Shown one piece after another: positions 6,168 through 24,472 of a DNA stretch of 27,851 nt (its first letter is position 1; every line of letters starts with the position of its first letter). The notes under the pieces were generated by a model. That model worked only from the letters and a program-made list of their open reading frames with translations, was not told the DNA's origin and searched no databases. The stretch spans positions 1-27,851 of IMG/VR virus record IMGVR_UViG_3300026114_000012; one strand, 5' to 3'. The DNA is from a virus. Made by a program: the position numbers and the translations under genes.

Positions 6168-6206
6168 GGGGCCGCCACTCAACTTTCGGTTGGTCTCTAA
6201 CGCCCC
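6168..6206. other. GC-rich hairpin upstream of the tRNA
   Basis: GGGGC (6168-6172) can pair with GCCCC (6202-6206), and CAAC (6180-6183) with GTTG (6189-6192) around the loop TTTCG. It is an island of GC in an AT-rich spacer between divergent transcription units. It could be a small RNA, part of the tRNA primary transcript, or a transcription boundary. No family recognised. Confidence 0.4.
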
Positions 6207-6209
6207 ATA

Positions 6210-6238
6210 GCCAGAGGCGTTTAAATTAAATATCTGGC
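6210..6238 (+). promoter_or_regulatory. Probable tRNA promoter inside an inverted repeat
   Basis: GCCAGA (6210-6215) and TCTGGC (6233-6238) are perfect inverted repeats around an AT-rich core GTTTAAATTAAATA. The TTTAAATT core is about 15-23 bases before the mature tRNA 5' end (6242), close to the usual archaeal TATA position. The flanking repeats could bind a regulator or form a hairpin in DNA or RNA. Confidence 0.45.
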
Positions 6239-6241
6239 AAA

Positions 6242-6394
6242 GCGCCATTGGTCTAGTGGTCAACGACGCTAGCCAAACAAAACTAATCGAGTCCTGTGGC
6301 TTGCTGAGATAATGCAGTAGCCATCGAATGGCATAGAAAGTTCCGCAGGATAGAGAAGAAGCTGGCGACCCGAGTTCGAATCTCGGATGGCGCG
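6242..6394 (+). tRNA. tRNA gene interrupted in the anticodon loop
   Basis: All arms are present. Acceptor GCGCCAT (6242-6248) pairs perfectly with ATGGCGC (6387-6393), with G6394 as discriminator. The D stem GTCT/CGAC encloses AGTGGTCAA. Anticodon stem CTAGC (6269-6273) pairs with GCTGG (6361-6365) with one G-U. The variable loop is CGAC, and T-arm CCGAG-TTCGAAT-CTCGG is perfect. Between the anticodon stem halves lie 87 bases instead of 7, so about 80 bases are extra. The insertion has its own stem, TCCTGTGG (6292-6299) with CCGCAGGA (6343-6350), and an inner hairpin GCCAT-CGA-ATGGC. I could not place a bulge-helix-bulge or a T at position 33, so the anticodon and identity are unresolved. The overall sequence is closest in style to Gly, Glu or Asp tRNAs. 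Convergent with the next gene, which ends at 6395. Confidence 0.8.
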
Positions 6395-6544
6395 TTAATT
6401 TTCCACTTTCTCCTTTATCCTTATTCTAGAATACTCACTAACAGAACCGCAGTAAGCACAACGCACAGTCAAGAAATCCACGTCAGACAGTTCGCCCATC
6501 CAGAGACAGATCCTTTCACCACAATCATTACACGGGAACTTCAT
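6395..6544 (-). CDS. 49-aa zinc-ribbon mini-protein
   Basis: MKFPCNDCGERICLWMGELS opens the protein, with CNDCG (C5, C8) and later VRCAYCGSV (C29, C32), a classic four-Cys zinc ribbon occupying nearly the whole chain, then a basic tail (SRIRIKEKVEN). It probably binds nucleic acid or a transcription factor. The ATG at 6544 overlaps the stop of the preceding gene (ATGA). Its TAA lies directly against the 3' end of the tRNA on the other strand. It is the last gene of the operon that starts with the probable small terminase. Confidence 0.75.
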   Translation of the reverse strand: MKFPCNDCGERICLWMGELSDVDFLTVRCAYCGSVSEYSRIRIKEKVEN

Positions 6545-13911: not shown

Positions 13912-14379
13912 ATGTCTGAATCATCTAAGACTTCATCATTATCTGAACACGAAGAAAACCAGTCTAACGAAGACGATACCACTATTTGGGAGCCTGTACA
14001 GGACAATAATCAGGAGTATAATGACTATCCATTAGCATTTGTCAATGTTGACAAGGAGGACGACAGTATTTCCTACAATGTTGATGGCGACGAGATCACT
14101 CCTGAAGGATTAGATAGTCCGGGGCCGATGATTGTCGGCGAGTTCCAAGGCATTAATGACATTAGCAGCGATGACAATCCTGAACCGAGCATTAAGGTTC
14201 TTGTCGATTCTGATGACGATGAACGCACCTATGCCTTAAACAAGGTTAAGGCTTTGGAGCAACAATTAACCAAAGTTGAAGAAGGTGAAAGAATTGGCCT
14301 AGACTTTGACGGTTATGTTCATCCTGAAGATGATGGGCTGCCATGGCAGAATTGGACTGTTTACACGCCAAGTGCCTAA
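13912..14379 (+). CDS. Acidic OB-fold protein, probable ssDNA-binding
   Basis: 155 aa. A disordered Ser/Glu-rich N-terminus (residues 1-35) is followed by an OB-like core: GPMIVGEFQGINDIS, PSIKVLVDSDDDERTYAL, ALEQQLTKVEEGERIGLDF and NWTVYTPSA. The order strand-turn, long strand, 'L...L..V..GE.I..D..G' and terminal strand is that of small viral single-stranded DNA-binding proteins. It would protect ssDNA exposed by the SF3 helicase, whose operon is divergently transcribed next door. It has its own strong promoter and ribosome site and is one of the few genes on the plus strand. An acidic SSB suits a salty cytoplasm. Confidence 0.6.
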   Translation: MSESSKTSSLSEHEENQSNEDDTTIWEPVQDNNQEYNDYPLAFVNVDKEDDSISYNVDGDEITPEGLDSPGPMIVGEFQGINDISSDDNPEPSIKVLVDSDDDERTYALNKVKALEQQLTKVEEGERIGLDFDGYVHPEDDGLPWQNWTVYTPSA

Positions 14380-20178: not shown

Positions 20179-20592
20179 CTAAACAAAATCCTGTAGTTTG
20201 GTGACTTGCCACTGTACCTCAATAACATTTAGTCTCGCACCGTTATTCTCGGCTACAAAGTACTGGAAGTTTATGGGCTTAAATTCTTTGACTATTTGAG
20301 AATCGTTTTCTAGGTCTTCAAGAATCTGGTCGGTCGCCTTCTCAACTTTCTCAGTTGCATCAAGAAGGTCGATATGGTTAGTGCCTTTCTCCAGTACGAA
20401 AAGGATTGTGAACTGGTCGGCATACTCCAACTCGTTCTGGTACTGACTGCTTTGTGGTAACAGACTGGCAGCTGGATAAGTCATTTTACCGAAGTCGTTG
20501 CCGATTGCTTGGTTGAAGTCGCTGTCGTCCCTGAGTGTGTCTCTCACTGTTTTTAGTGGGCCACTTATCTGTCCCTGAAAACTATCTGCCAT
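20179..20592 (-). CDS. Tail terminator / completion protein, 137 aa
   Basis: Alpha/beta protein in the position of tail terminators, which cap the tube and join it to the neck. The C-terminal strands (ARLNVIEVQWQVTKLQDFV) and a central strand (YADQFTILFVLEK) with a helix (LDATEKVEKATDQILEDLEN) fit the gpU/gp17-like fold. Identification is by synteny (neck, terminator, tube). The gene faces the plus-strand cassette 20676-21498 from a shared TATA region. Confidence 0.65.
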   Translation of the reverse strand: MADSFQGQISGPLKTVRDTLRDDSDFNQAIGNDFGKMTYPAASLLPQSSQYQNELEYADQFTILFVLEKGTNHIDLLDATEKVEKATDQILEDLENDSQIVKEFKPINFQYFVAENNGARLNVIEVQWQVTKLQDFV

Positions 20593-20628
20593 ACCAATTA
20601 TTTCTGTCTTGGATGTTTAAAGAGTAAG

Positions 20629-20638
20629 GTATAAAAGG
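20629..20638. promoter_or_regulatory. Back-to-back promoter between tail and moron genes
   Basis: GTATAAAAGG on the plus strand is a TATA box for ATG 20676 (with GAGGT at 20664-20668). The complement CCTTTTATAC can serve as a TATA box for ATG 20592 in the other direction. One element may therefore feed both units, or two boxes overlap. Confidence 0.5.
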
Positions 20639-20675
20639 TTGGTAGTAGTATTAGTAATATACGAGGTAAGAAAGA

Positions 20676-21053
20676 ATGGATTCAAACAAAAACGATGAAA
20701 GAAATGCAGGAAAAATAGCAGAGTTAATAGACAAAGCTGTAAAAAAACCAGAAGAAGACGGTAAAATGCACTTAATTCGTAATGATAAAGAAATTGACAA
20801 TACAGCTGCAGGAATTGAATATATCGTTGCTAACGATTGCAAAATTTCTGTAAAAAAGTTGCAAATAATTAAAGGGCGCGTGGAATCACTCATAAATAGG
20901 AAAAATATAAGCGGATTTGATCCGGTAGTTTGGGTAGAAAATTTTTATGAAGAACAACCAGTTTTACAACATCACTCAATATTCGTAGGAATAATAGAAG
21001 AAAGTGATAGAAAGGAATCTGAAGCGTTAATAACACAAGAGGCAGATGAATAA
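20676..21053 (+). CDS. Moron gene, 125 aa
   Basis: First gene of a three-gene plus-strand cassette inserted between neck and tail genes. Unrecognised: a Lys/Glu-rich start (MDSNKNDERNAGKIAELIDK), a central part (AAGIEYIVANDCKISVKKLQ) and a C-terminal strand region (HSIFVGIIEESD). Its own TATA box, ribosome site and AT-rich codons differ from the surrounding late genes. It is coupled to the zinc-ribbon gene by TAATG. Cassettes like this often encode host-directed or superinfection-exclusion functions; no direct evidence here. Confidence 0.7.
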   Translation: MDSNKNDERNAGKIAELIDKAVKKPEEDGKMHLIRNDKEIDNTAAGIEYIVANDCKISVKKLQIIKGRVESLINRKNISGFDPVVWVENFYEEQPVLQHHSIFVGIIEESDRKESEALITQEADE

Positions 21054-21166
21054 TGCAGGTTGAGTGTCATAAATGCGGTTACGAGTGGGAGACTAAAAGC
21101 GAGATGAAAATGGTGAGTTGTCCAAGCTGCAGCCGAAAAACACCAAGAGAAAGTGATAATCAATGA
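21053..21166 (+). CDS. 37-aa zinc-ribbon protein (moron, copy 1)
   Basis: MQVECHKCGYEWETKSEMKM then VSCPSCSRKTPRES. CHKCG and CPSC make a four-Cys zinc ribbon covering most of the chain. It is a clear paralogue of the 35-aa protein at 22800: shared EC..CG.EW, K and SCP.C. Coupled on both sides (TAATG before, ATGA after). Likely a zinc-binding adaptor for nucleic acid or a host protein. Confidence 0.75.
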   Translation: MQVECHKCGYEWETKSEMKMVSCPSCSRKTPRESDNQ

Positions 21167-21498
21167 CTAAAGTATATGAAAGAGAAAATGATGAAGGAAC
21201 TTTAACTGTTAAAGTAAAATATGTCGGCAGATTTGATAGTTTTCACATAGATTTTAATCTAGGATCTATAAGCGACGGCAATCTTGGAAAAGATAAAGGA
21301 GAAAGTTATTATTGGGGTAGTGAACACGTTACTGTTGTTAGACATGGAATTATTAGTAAATTAAAGGCTTTGTTTTCTTCTAAAGACTCTAGAACAATAG
21401 CAAAAGAAAAGGCTATAAGGGAGGCAGATAAAGCATTTGAAAAGAGAAATAAGAAAAAGAAGATTTGTAAAAGGCTAGAAAGAAATATGCAGGATTAA
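21163..21498 (+). CDS. Moron gene, 111 aa, basic C-terminus
   Basis: Third gene of the cassette, coupled by ATGA to the zinc ribbon. N-terminal half beta-like (MTKVYERENDEGTLTVKVKY; RFDSFHIDFNLGSISDG), C-terminal third strongly basic (FEKRNKKKKICKRLERNMQD), which suggests nucleic-acid binding and is unlike the acidic proteins around it. No family recognised. Its stop overlaps the convergent neck gene by 4 bases, so the cassette fits without spare DNA. Confidence 0.7.
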   Translation: MTKVYERENDEGTLTVKVKYVGRFDSFHIDFNLGSISDGNLGKDKGESYYWGSEHVTVVRHGIISKLKALFSSKDSRTIAKEKAIREADKAFEKRNKKKKICKRLERNMQD

Positions 21499-21947
21499 CT
21501 ATATTTCTGATTTAGGCGGTCGATCGCCCTTTGCATGAATGGATTGGCTTCCGTACCTGACTCTTTGATGCTTCGGCCTACGATGTATGTGGCTTGGTCT
21601 AAGGTTTTTACCTCCCAGTCACTATTCTCGCCCCATGCTGTATAACTTTCCTCTCCGATTACTCGCCCAACCCATTTACGCAGACTTTGTATGTTAGGCC
21701 ATTCGCCTGGCTCACGCCCAAACTCTACAGCACCAGCATAACCGGCATTAACCGCTACAACAATACTGGCATCATTAGAATCGTATCCTAGAACCTGTAT
21801 CGACTGTCTTAAACGACCAGTAGCTCCGACTGGCGCTTCGTCCTTAGCAAAGTTAGAAAGGTCGGCAGCCACACGAGTCATAAAACTTTCTAGTTCTTCT
21901 CGTATGTCGTCATCGACATTGGACGCATCAAATCTTATCGTAACCAT
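21495..21947 (-). CDS. Neck protein, HK97 gp10-like, 150 aa
   Basis: Head-tail joining protein family (HK97_gp10). Typical marks are an N-terminal helix (DIREELESFMTRVAADL), then APVGATGRLRQSIQV, then NAGYAGAVEFGREPG, the 'P..TG.LR.SI...YA.yvEfG' signature, and a C-terminal PFMQRAIDRLNQ. Length is normal. Its ATG overlaps the stop of the connector gene by one base. The 3' end overlaps the convergent plus-strand cassette. Confidence 0.9.
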   Translation of the reverse strand: MVTIRFDASNVDDDIREELESFMTRVAADLSNFAKDEAPVGATGRLRQSIQVLGYDSNDASIVVAVNAGYAGAVEFGREPGEWPNIQSLRKWVGRVIGEESYTAWGENSDWEVKTLDQATYIVGRSIKESGTEANPFMQRAIDRLNQKYS

Positions 21948-22621
21948 TATCGCATCATAATGTACTTGTGCTTATTTTGACTAATCTGATTTACACGGTT
22001 CTGTATGTCGTCCGTCAGTATTTGCCGCTGGTTAAAGCCCTGTATGTCGTCAGGGGAAAGATTGGCCAAGTTCTGCTCCTGTCTCAAGTAGACAAGTATC
22101 CGCCTCACTATCTCCCGTGTAACTTCCTTTACATCCTGTGGCACATTCCCGACCGTGTAACCTCTATCATATGTTACTCTTACCCTATCGGCTATGTCAC
22201 TCCATCGGGCACGGTTACTGTTTCGTTTTAACGGATTCTGCACATTGTAAAATCGGTACTGGTTTGGTATCAACTGGCTTCTCAGTATTATACCTTGATT
22301 GTCGAAACTGTAAAGATCTGTGTCAAGTGTTTTCCATTCACCGTCCGCCTTCGCAGTAATCTCAACCTTTGTCACATCGTCAATTGGTTGTACTAGCTGG
22401 AGCTCAGGTTTGTCGGGTGCGTTCTCTGTGTCGACCCTGCCGTCTTGACGAGTGTATCCCTCGCCCTTGATTTGTCCATCCACAATTGCCCTTGCCTGTT
22501 GCTCCAGTCTTTCCAGTAGATCCTCGTACTTCGGTTCTGGATTTGTCTGGTAGAACTCTTCACCCTCTCGTGCTGCTGGCTCAACAGTTGCTTTTAACTC
22601 GGACAATGTGAGATAAGTCAT
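21947..22621 (-). CDS. Head-tail connector, 224 aa
   Basis: Positioned after the capsid gene and before the gp10-like gene, the usual place of the gp6/gp15-type connector that caps the portal. The start MTYLTLSELKATVEPAA and the pattern of helix, strand block (DVTKVEITAKADGEW; IADRVRVTYDRGYT) and C-terminal helix (VKEVTREIVRRILVYLR) fit this family. Somewhat longer than the common ~110-200 aa members. Identification is by pattern plus synteny. Confidence 0.75.
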   Translation of the reverse strand: MTYLTLSELKATVEPAAREGEEFYQTNPEPKYEDLLERLEQQARAIVDGQIKGEGYTRQDGRVDTENAPDKPELQLVQPIDDVTKVEITAKADGEWKTLDTDLYSFDNQGIILRSQLIPNQYRFYNVQNPLKRNSNRARWSDIADRVRVTYDRGYTVGNVPQDVKEVTREIVRRILVYLRQEQNLANLSPDDIQGFNQRQILTDDIQNRVNQISQNKHKYIMMR

Positions 22622-22750
22622 AACAATTAAATAGGGTTTCCTGTATTTTAATGGTTAGGATAAAAAAGGGAAACGGGAATCGGGAATTACCGCCCTCAAA
22701 AAACATAGTTGTAACTGGTCGATAAGAAATTTACTGGTTAGATTAAGGAA

Positions 22751-22762
22751 AGATATATAAGT
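22751..22762 (+). promoter_or_regulatory. Promoter of the second moron cassette
   Basis: AGATATATAAGT is a TATA box about 40 bases before ATG 22800, followed by GAAGGTGA (ribosome site) at 22787-22794. The divergent spacer 22622-22799 also serves the connector gene in the other direction and is AT-rich with a run of A's near 22665. Confidence 0.6.
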
Positions 22763-22799
22763 AGTATTCAGTAATAGGTATGTATAGAAGGTGACTAAA

Positions 22800-22907
22800 A
22801 TGGAACTAGAATGTCAAAGATGCGGAAAAGAATGGGATTACAAAGGCGACAGCAACTACTATGCTAGTTGTCCAAACTGCAAAACAAGCGTAAAGGTGGA
22901 AAAATAA
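22800..22907 (+). CDS. 35-aa zinc-ribbon protein (moron, copy 2)
   Basis: MELECQRCGKEWDYKGDSNY then YASCPNCKTSVKVEK. The pairs CQRC and CPNC form a zinc ribbon. It is paralogous to the protein at 21053, sharing EC..CG.EW and SCP.C, and likewise lies in a plus-strand insert among structural genes. Its TAA overlaps the next ATG (TAATG). Confidence 0.75.
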   Translation: MELECQRCGKEWDYKGDSNYYASCPNCKTSVKVEK

Positions 22908-23287
22908 TGGAAACACTTACTAAGACACTACCAAATGGAGAAAAAATAGCCGTAAGATACGATCCCATGGCGGCAGGTAAAGTTGAAGAAATGGCTAAAA
23001 AAGAACTTCAAAGAGAATACGAAAAAGCAATTGGAGTTGACCACACATTAGAAAGTCTTGAAGAAAAATACGAATCTGAATGTCCTCACTGTGTTACTTC
23101 AAAAGAACCTAAGAAAGAAATCGAATGGGAAAGCTGGAGCGGATTACTTAGCGGAGGCATTGAAAAGAAAGAACGATTTAAATGTAGAGACTGCGGAAAT
23201 CAATTTAATAGACAAGAATTAAAGAGGCATAGAAAAACATGTTTAAGAAAAATTACAGAACATAAGAAAAGAAAGAAGAAAAGCTAA
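22907..23287 (+). CDS. Zinc-finger protein, 126 aa
   Basis: Start at ATG 22907 (METLTKTLPNGEKIAVRYDP), chosen because it overlaps the zinc-ribbon stop as TAATG; an in-frame ATG 13 codons earlier lies inside that gene. Two metal sites: ECPHC near residue 58 and FKCRDCGNQFNRQELKRHRK then TC, a C2HC finger of the 'CxxCG..F....L..H...C' type. The C-terminus is strongly basic (KITEHKKRKKKS). Very likely DNA- or RNA-binding. It is convergent with the major capsid gene, with a hairpin at the junction. Confidence 0.78.
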   Translation: METLTKTLPNGEKIAVRYDPMAAGKVEEMAKKELQREYEKAIGVDHTLESLEEKYESECPHCVTSKEPKKEIEWESWSGLLSGGIEKKERFKCRDCGNQFNRQELKRHRKTCLRKITEHKKRKKKS

Positions 23288-23306
23288 GGAGAAAAATTAT
23301 TCTCCT
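23287..23306. terminator. Convergent hairpin at the ends of capsid and zinc-finger genes
   Basis: AGGAGAA (23287-23293), loop AAATTA, TTCTCCT (23300-23306): a perfect 7-base inverted repeat covering the TAA of the capsid gene and the end of the zinc-finger gene. It can form on either transcript and may act as a boundary or mRNA 3' stabiliser for both. Confidence 0.5.
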
Positions 23307-24472
23307 GTAGCATTGACGTACTGAATGTGGCTTGGTGCCTCAGACACAAATGTTCCGTAAACATCTGTGGCAAACTGCTGCTGAGGTGCGACCTTTGCCA
23401 ATGGCTTAACTGTCATGTCCTGAAGCATTCCCATGTAGTTACTTCCCATGTCTGCTCCAACCATGATTGTCTCATCAGTGTCTGTGGAAATACTGTCTGC
23501 TCTTGGCAATGCGTTTGACTTCATAATCTGTACGCCGTCAAACTCAAGAGCTTGGAATCCAAATCCTAGTTCTTCGCCCGGATCATTGTATCGGACTTCT
23601 GTCTCTAGGTCGTTCTGGATGTTGCTGAAAGTGTCGAAGTCAACGAAGACCACGATTCTACCTCTATTGGCTCCTTGGAACTCAAGCTCAGTGATCAACT
23701 GTCTCAAGTTTTCTTTCCAGTCCTGTTGTTCTGCTAGGTCGTAAGTTGATTCAAGTGTTCCTAGGTCTTTCATGCCTTCGAATCCGTTGGCATCTTCCTC
23801 GGTTCCAAGTAGAATCTGTCTTTCCTCATACTGTCTGATTCCTGTGGCATGTGCCTGTTCTGCAACCGACTGTGTAGCTCTAAGCACATCAGATGCTAGA
23901 ACCATCTTGTCTTCAAGTCTTGAAGCAACTCCGTAGCCAACTACATCATACTGGTGGTCTGTGTAGCTTCCATCAGCGTAAGTGTAGCTGCCTTCTGTGT
24001 CGTCAGTTGTTTCAAGGCCTGAAGTTGGACTTGGCTGATCCGTCTCTTCTGTAGCATTGACTGTGTCTGAGTTGACTGAGATTCTTGGAATCATGTCTGC
24101 AGCCGGTGTCTTCTCTGGCTGTGACACTCTGATTTCTGGAATGAAGAAGATCGGGATGTTCCAATCAGCTGTGTCATAGTTCTTTGCAATCTGGTCAACG
24201 GCTTCGTTAAATGGATAATCCTGTTCCTCGTGCAGTCTTGAGAACTCTTTTGCAATTGGCTCGTACTGTTCCCAGAATTTTTCCTTAAGATCAACTGCGT
24301 TCTTGCCAATCTTGCCTGGTGTCCGTGCTCCTAGTGGGTCCCAGTAAACGGTTTTGTGTTCTAGGTCGTTGAAACCGCCTTTGTAAAGGCTGTCTGTGTT
24401 CTGTCTGATTTGTGATTGGGACTTGACGATCCCTTGTTTTCGTGCCGAATTAACTTTCTGTACTGTTTTCAT
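23297..24472 (-). CDS. Major capsid protein, HK97 fold
   Basis: 391 aa. Head shell subunit. It follows the protease-scaffold gene by 4 bases. The sequence carries the HK97-type layout: an N-terminal basic arm (MKTVQKVNSARKQGIVKSQS), a long spine-helix region (VLRATQSVAEQAHATGIRQY), 'ERQILLGTEEDANGFEGM', the P/A-domain helix (QQDWKENLRQLITELEF) and the strand RIVVFVDFDTFSNIQ. Compared with its neighbours its codons more often end in C or G, as in highly expressed genes. No separate propeptide is obvious. Codon bias, position and fold agree. Confidence 0.9.
   Translation of the reverse strand: MKTVQKVNSARKQGIVKSQSQIRQNTDSLYKGGFNDLEHKTVYWDPLGARTPGKIGKNAVDLKEKFWEQYEPIAKEFSRLHEEQDYPFNEAVDQIAKNYDTADWNIPIFFIPEIRVSQPEKTPAADMIPRISVNSDTVNATEETDQPSPTSGLETTDDTEGSYTYADGSYTDHQYDVVGYGVASRLEDKMVLASDVLRATQSVAEQAHATGIRQYEERQILLGTEEDANGFEGMKDLGTLESTYDLAEQQDWKENLRQLITELEFQGANRGRIVVFVDFDTFSNIQNDLETEVRYNDPGEELGFGFQALEFDGVQIMKSNALPRADSISTDTDETIMVGADMGSNYMGMLQDMTVKPLAKVAPQQQFATDVYGTFVSEAPSHIQYVNATGE

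Follow-up and report, generated by a model that had tools for sequence, protein, structure and literature searches.

Arrangement of the two cassettes

The head–tail gene block of the window, i.e., the whole 27.9-kb virus record analysed here, lies on the minus strand and is interrupted by two plus-strand cassettes, C1 and C2. C1 (20676–21498) consists of three genes. The first (20676–21053) encodes a 125-aa acidic protein (pI 5.0) that gave no meaningful match, the second (21053–21166) a 37-aa zinc ribbon of the type CxxCG...CPxC, and the third (21163–21498) a 111-aa protein (pI 9.6). The cassette is located between the neck gene (21495–21947, minus strand), whose product is an HK97 gp10-like tail-completion protein homologous to HSTV-1 gp20, and a late gene for a homologue of HSTV-1 gp21 (20179–20592, minus strand). 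C2 (22800–23287) contains two genes, one for a 35-aa zinc ribbon (22800–22907) and one for a 126-aa protein with zinc motifs (22907–23287; pI 9.2). It is placed between the gene of the major capsid protein (MCP; 23297–24472, minus strand) and that of the head–tail adaptor, a homologue of HSTV-1 gp17 (21947–22621, minus strand). The preliminary description had characterized the neighbors of the ribbons as basic or unknown; the 111-aa and 126-aa proteins are basic, but the first protein of C1 is not.

Adjacent genes within the cassettes overlap by 1–4 nt (TAATG or ATGA), and the C1 ribbon gene has such stop/start overlaps at both of its ends; translation is therefore probably coupled. At its first start codon, each cassette diverges from one late gene, and at its last stop codon it converges with another. 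The 3′ ends of C1 and of the neck gene share 4 nt. Only 9 nt separate the end of C2 from the MCP stop codon, a junction spanned by a strong hairpin (23283–23311; folding z −4.6). The coding nature of the cassettes was examined by shuffling. In 500 dinucleotide shuffles, no ORF attained the length of the longest plus-strand ORFs, 125 and 139 codons. The CxxCGxxW...CPxC ribbon is present twice in the window and was absent from all of 200 shuffles. Hence, the two opposed ORF sets previously proposed at 20676–21498 and 22800–23287 do exist and exceed chance expectation. GC and AT skew change sign across both cassette intervals, the purine-rich strand being switched, as opposite-strand coding would predict. 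The GC3 values of the cassette genes (0.20–0.42) are within the range of the other virus genes, so base composition does not clearly point to a foreign origin. Neither cassette is flanked by repeats or accompanied by a mobility gene that would mark an insertion.

The window has a GC content of about 41% and encodes mostly acidic proteins. It belongs to a halophilic tailed virus of archaea, from a salt lake, that is kin to Halovirus HSTV-1 and to HHTV-2/HCTV-2. Indeed, its MCP, a member of family phrog_25898, shares 40% identity with HSTV-1 gp14, and the homologues of the protease, adaptor, neck protein, gp21, and gp22 are arranged in the same order as in HSTV-1. A portal-like gene is cut off by the left end and the gene for a LamG-like protein by the right end, so the window looks like a circularly permuted fragment.

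Promoter regions and partner proteins

Both cassettes are preceded by promoter-like sequences. The C1 promoter region (20593–20675), divergent from the minus-strand gene starting at 20592, contains a TATA-like box, TATAAAA (20630–20636), and an SD-like sequence, GAGGT (20664–20668). The C2 promoter region (22622–22799) contains TATATAA (22754–22760) and an SD-like AAGGTG ahead of the first start codon. In both cases the TATA-like box starts 46 nt upstream of the first start codon, with the SD-like sequence in between. Downstream of the two boxes, a common 16-nt word is found as AGTAGTATT-AGTAATA at 20644–20659 in C1 and as AGTAGTATTCAGTAATA at 22760–22776 in C2. When the full intergenic regions were compared, the score of this word was reached by 9 of 1000 shuffles.

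The proteins encoded beside the ribbons are largely orphans. The 125-, 111-, and 126-aa proteins had no credible homologue in the phage and viral collections searched. For the 111-aa protein, the search extended to Halobacteria genomes, again without a credible homologue: the one weak match there is a MazG-like frame that was judged, from its sequence, to have matched by chance. Zinc motifs of the 126-aa protein comprise one CPxC pair, one CxxC pair, and, at residues 89–111, a C2H2/C2HC-like finger. Structure models of two partner proteins were of low confidence (pLDDT 66 and 46); thus, neither homology nor modeling supports a function for the partners.

In one study, early archaeal anti-defense genes were recognized by a strong promoter together with a regulatory sequence shared within the same genome (PMC11065993). 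The common word after the TATA-like boxes resembles this criterion, and small proteins without homologues are typical of such genes. The cassettes could accordingly be read as early anti-defense genes controlled by one common regulatory sequence, where the ribbon would regulate the operon in an arrangement like that of Acr/Aca loci. Yet the shared word is of weak significance, since its score was reached by 40 of 1000 shuffles when 60 nt were compared, and its distance to the TATA-like box is not fixed, leaving the two copies out of register. Moreover, a PADLOC search for defense systems gave nothing above noise, and the ribbons are not helix-turn-helix regulators. We regard an anti-defense role as decidedly unlikely.

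A widespread family of archaeal mini ribbons

The sequences of the ribbons are MQVECHKCGYEWETKSEMKMVSCPSCSRKTPRESDNQ (ribbon 1, from C1) and MELECQRCGKEWDYKGDSNYYASCPNCKTSVKVEK (ribbon 2, from C2). Against an HMM built from 84 other ribbons, ribbon 2 scored 66 bits (E 4e-19) and ribbon 1 scored 28 bits (E 4e-7), i.e., the former is a typical member of the family and the latter a divergent one. The W-x-Y-x-G core is present in ribbon 2, whereas ribbon 1 has EWETKSE instead. The two had been described as sister proteins. They do fall into one broad family, but neither is the closest relative of the other: their mutual alignment score of 77 is lower than that of ribbon 1 to 11 of the 84 other ribbons and that of ribbon 2 to 80 of the 84. 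Duplication within the virus as their closest relation is ruled out, as other ribbons score higher to either copy. Ribbon 2 is 60% identical to the ribbon of another virus contig, L033.

The family was defined by the pattern CxxCGxxWxYxG(7)CPxC, and a search with it yielded 69 genome loci, which by record title are nearly all archaeal with a few bacterial or unplaced exceptions, as well as 11 viral contigs. Within the Halobacteria, 24 of 292 genomes contain a mini ribbon. In most cases the ribbon forms an ORF of its own, about 36–50 aa long, and its genomic neighborhoods are diverse. At four archaeal loci (L052, L075, L097, and L100), it lies directly upstream of a TnpB-like gene with Cas12f1-like_TNB and OrfB_IS605 domains, separated by 2 nt in three loci and overlapping in one. 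In Hadesarchaea it precedes genes for MinD/ParA-like ATPases, in Methanomicrobiales it is found near HypD, and viral mini ribbons adjoin methyltransferases. In hypersaline Thermoplasmatota, the ribbon also forms the N-terminal domain of longer proteins. Three Thermoplasmatota loci (L041, L046, and L080), two of them recorded from the Great Salt Lake, have three genes in a row, each encoding a longer protein with an N-terminal ribbon.

Curated libraries largely miss these proteins. No Pfam cut-off was reached by the ribbons, and the NCBIfam model TIGR02098 (MJ0042_CXXC) matched ribbon 2 with 21.2 bits, just above its cut-off of 20.9 bits, while covering half of the ribbon. Over its full length the family resembles RNA polymerase subunit P, though weakly, and matches to TFIIS-type ribbons are both weak and partial. 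CPxCG-related small zinc finger proteins, which are abundant in archaea (PMC2253796; PMC6562870), have been defined as proteins of fewer than 100 aa with two Cys/His pairs 7–40 residues apart, at least one of which is CPxCG-like (CPxCG, CPxCx, or CxxCG) (PMC2253796). With 37 and 35 aa and one CxxCG and one CPxCx pair each, both window ribbons fall within this definition and are therefore not a new kind of protein. They resemble Brz of Halobacterium (PMC2253796) and the zinc-finger micro-proteins of Haloferax (PMC6562870) in size, in the spacing of the two Cys pairs, and in the CPxCG-like patterns. Distinctively, the window ribbons are virus-borne and sit in opposed cassettes among structural genes, and the Pfam ribbon model of Brz was not among their best matches.

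Collectively, the mini ribbon is an archaea-wide family of predicted zinc-binding mini-proteins, spread over viruses, transposon-associated TnpB loci, and chromosomes. The suggestion of a new family of host-directed zinc proteins is supported in neither respect. The ribbon occurs in other viruses, beside IS605-type TnpB genes, and fused to cellular proteins, and nothing in this distribution points to a host-directed role.

The overlap of the ribbon gene with the next start codon, seen in both cassettes and at several unrelated loci, recalls the Com–mom operon of phage Mu, where the gene of a small zinc protein overlaps that of the downstream effector (PMC6483171). By analogy, the ribbon would bind the mRNA of its own operon and turn on the overlapping partner gene. 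Profile comparisons showed similarity of ribbon 1 to phrog_6417, annotated as 'translational regulator', and of the HHTV-2 gp41-type zinc protein from virus contig L022 to Zn_ribbon_Com, but both matches were weak and below every cut-off. Unlike in Mu, the ribbon/partner junctions contain no stable RNA hairpin (z 1.6 and 0.5), folding no better than shuffled sequences, and the partner shows no sign of kinship to Mom. Translational control of this kind is thus highly improbable. At three unrelated loci (L028, L030, and L086), the mini ribbon overlaps a second small gene with a double CxxC, like in C2.

The cassette sites in related viruses

Close relatives spanning the cassette region were not found with the MCP, the adaptor, or the C1 and C2 partners as queries. 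The sole near relative found, contig L003 (terminase 79% identical), stops short of this region. Proviruses with an MCP of the window type are rare and distant: one was present in 391 Halobacteria genomes and one among 194 genomes from the phylum of G019, a genome recorded as Thermoplasmatota. The comparison therefore relies on distant relatives (MCP identity of 40% or less), and the gain of the cassettes is inferred from these only.

C1 and C2 are absent at these sites from every such relative examined. The gap between the neck and gp21 genes measures 162 nt in HSTV-1, without an annotated gene, and 8–16 nt in the Saparoviridae-like contigs measured. The MCP and adaptor genes of most relatives are 324–361 nt apart, and two contigs (L014 and L023) have slightly more than 460 nt here; in most, this interval contains only a 90–108-aa Cys-poor protein (a gene of the gp40/gp34 type) and no zinc protein. 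An intact cassette was not found at other loci either, the ribbon being widespread and the partners lacking homologues. Accordingly, in the relatives examined the cassettes do not accompany the structural block as constant parts that evolve with it, and the proposal that they are moron-like stands.

Indeed, the cassettes resemble morons and accessory loci of tailed phages (e.g., PMC7067206) in their position between structural genes, opposed to the late operon, in their absence from relatives, and in sites that are empty or variable elsewhere. An autonomous promoter, a further moron trait, is predicted for each cassette from its promoter-like sequences and would be of the archaeal type. Both components, accessory cassettes and small archaeal zinc ribbons, are of known kinds, and the zinc-ribbon cassettes form a plausible accessory gene set rather than a new protein family.

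We favor, with middling confidence, a reading in which each cassette is a moron-type accessory transcription unit in a gap of the head–tail block, and its ribbon and partner act as a regulator/effector module. Each ribbon would be co-translated with its partner, i.e., the 111-aa basic protein in C1 and the 126-aa zinc-finger protein in C2. Brz provides a precedent for regulators among the small CPxCG proteins (PMC2253796), and each ribbon may likewise bind nucleic acid or the transcription machinery. The weak similarities to RNA polymerase subunit P and TFIIS-type ribbons, the C2H2-like finger of the C2 partner, and the 16-nt word common to both cassettes are in line with this reading. The pair might then serve as an independently timed module, and its target may be host or virus gene expression.

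A complication for the moron-like reading is that other zinc proteins recur at the same slots. HHTV-2 gp41, a multi-Cys zinc protein, lies directly before the adaptor, and its family, which has no Pfam entry, has homologues in the contigs L016 and L022. In L022, the protein is within the MCP–adaptor interval; in L016, it follows the MCP and the contig ends inside the gene, before any adaptor. Two haloarchaeal proviruses, L144 and L148, also have a family member directly preceding the adaptor, although the MCP of the latter belongs to another family (phrog_1623). The gp41-type proteins between MCP and adaptor were mapped to L005 13406–13906, L022 2448–2972, L148 5059–5511, and L144 6272–6643 (minus strand). 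In HSTV-1, gp15 and gp16 follow the MCP in the slot of C2, and gp15, immediately after the MCP, is a zinc protein with CPxC pairs and a C2H2-like finger. It has no significant similarity to gp41. At the neck slot, L033, a distant virus whose MCP is also of phrog_25898, carries its same-family ribbon (6193–6303) just after the neck-gene region; no other relative examined has a mini ribbon near the MCP. Zinc motifs are otherwise infrequent: of 83 small proteins from three known relatives, only 7 contain one, and 2 of those 7 are slot proteins. Both slots are thus hotspots with a recurrent zinc theme, a new observation here.

All the zinc proteins recurring at these slots in other viruses are in the late-gene orientation, which points instead to a role tied to the slot, in the virion or late in infection. 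In this serious rival to the accessory reading, zinc proteins at the MCP–adaptor and neck–tail slots would help to complete the head, assemble the connector, or regulate late genes, and C2 and C1 would be non-homologous, inverted counterparts of HHTV-2 gp41, HSTV-1 gp15, and the L033 ribbon. The gp41-family proteins are co-oriented with the late genes, measure about 150–175 aa in most cases, and contain up to four Cys pairs; the ribbon at their center has a weak resemblance to the mini ribbon (hhalign probability 56%), but the second C2 protein is not homologous to gp41 (3.5% probability). Similarly, gp15 differs from this C2 protein in its late orientation and shares no significant sequence similarity with it. 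The window cassettes are oppositely oriented with promoter-like sequences of their own, and most relatives do without a zinc protein at the slot, so it is dispensable. Furthermore, the recurrence was recognized in hindsight and comprises about four independent cases. We therefore consider a slot-linked function somewhat unlikely, and the accessory-module reading is retained.

A broader possibility is that unrelated zinc proteins, namely the gp41 family, HSTV-1 gp15, the L033 ribbon, and C1/C2, have been repeatedly recruited to 'zinc slots' after the MCP and neck genes for one shared job, capsid completion or late gene control, the window's versions being inverted and independently transcribed. 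This appears rather unlikely, but the recurrent-slot pattern deserves a survey. Two sites in the genomes of archaeal tailed viruses gather accessory genes, and the zinc theme can be tested in cultured viruses through HHTV-2 gp41 and HSTV-1 gp15.

Elsewhere in the window, a third plus-strand gene (13912–14379) encodes a strongly acidic 155-aa protein without a family match. A further small zinc-type ORF of 49 aa (6395–6544, minus strand) lies outside the cassettes and has no significant match to the ribbon family. An RNA ligase gene (PF09414; 7571–8497, minus strand) is located within the non-structural genes.
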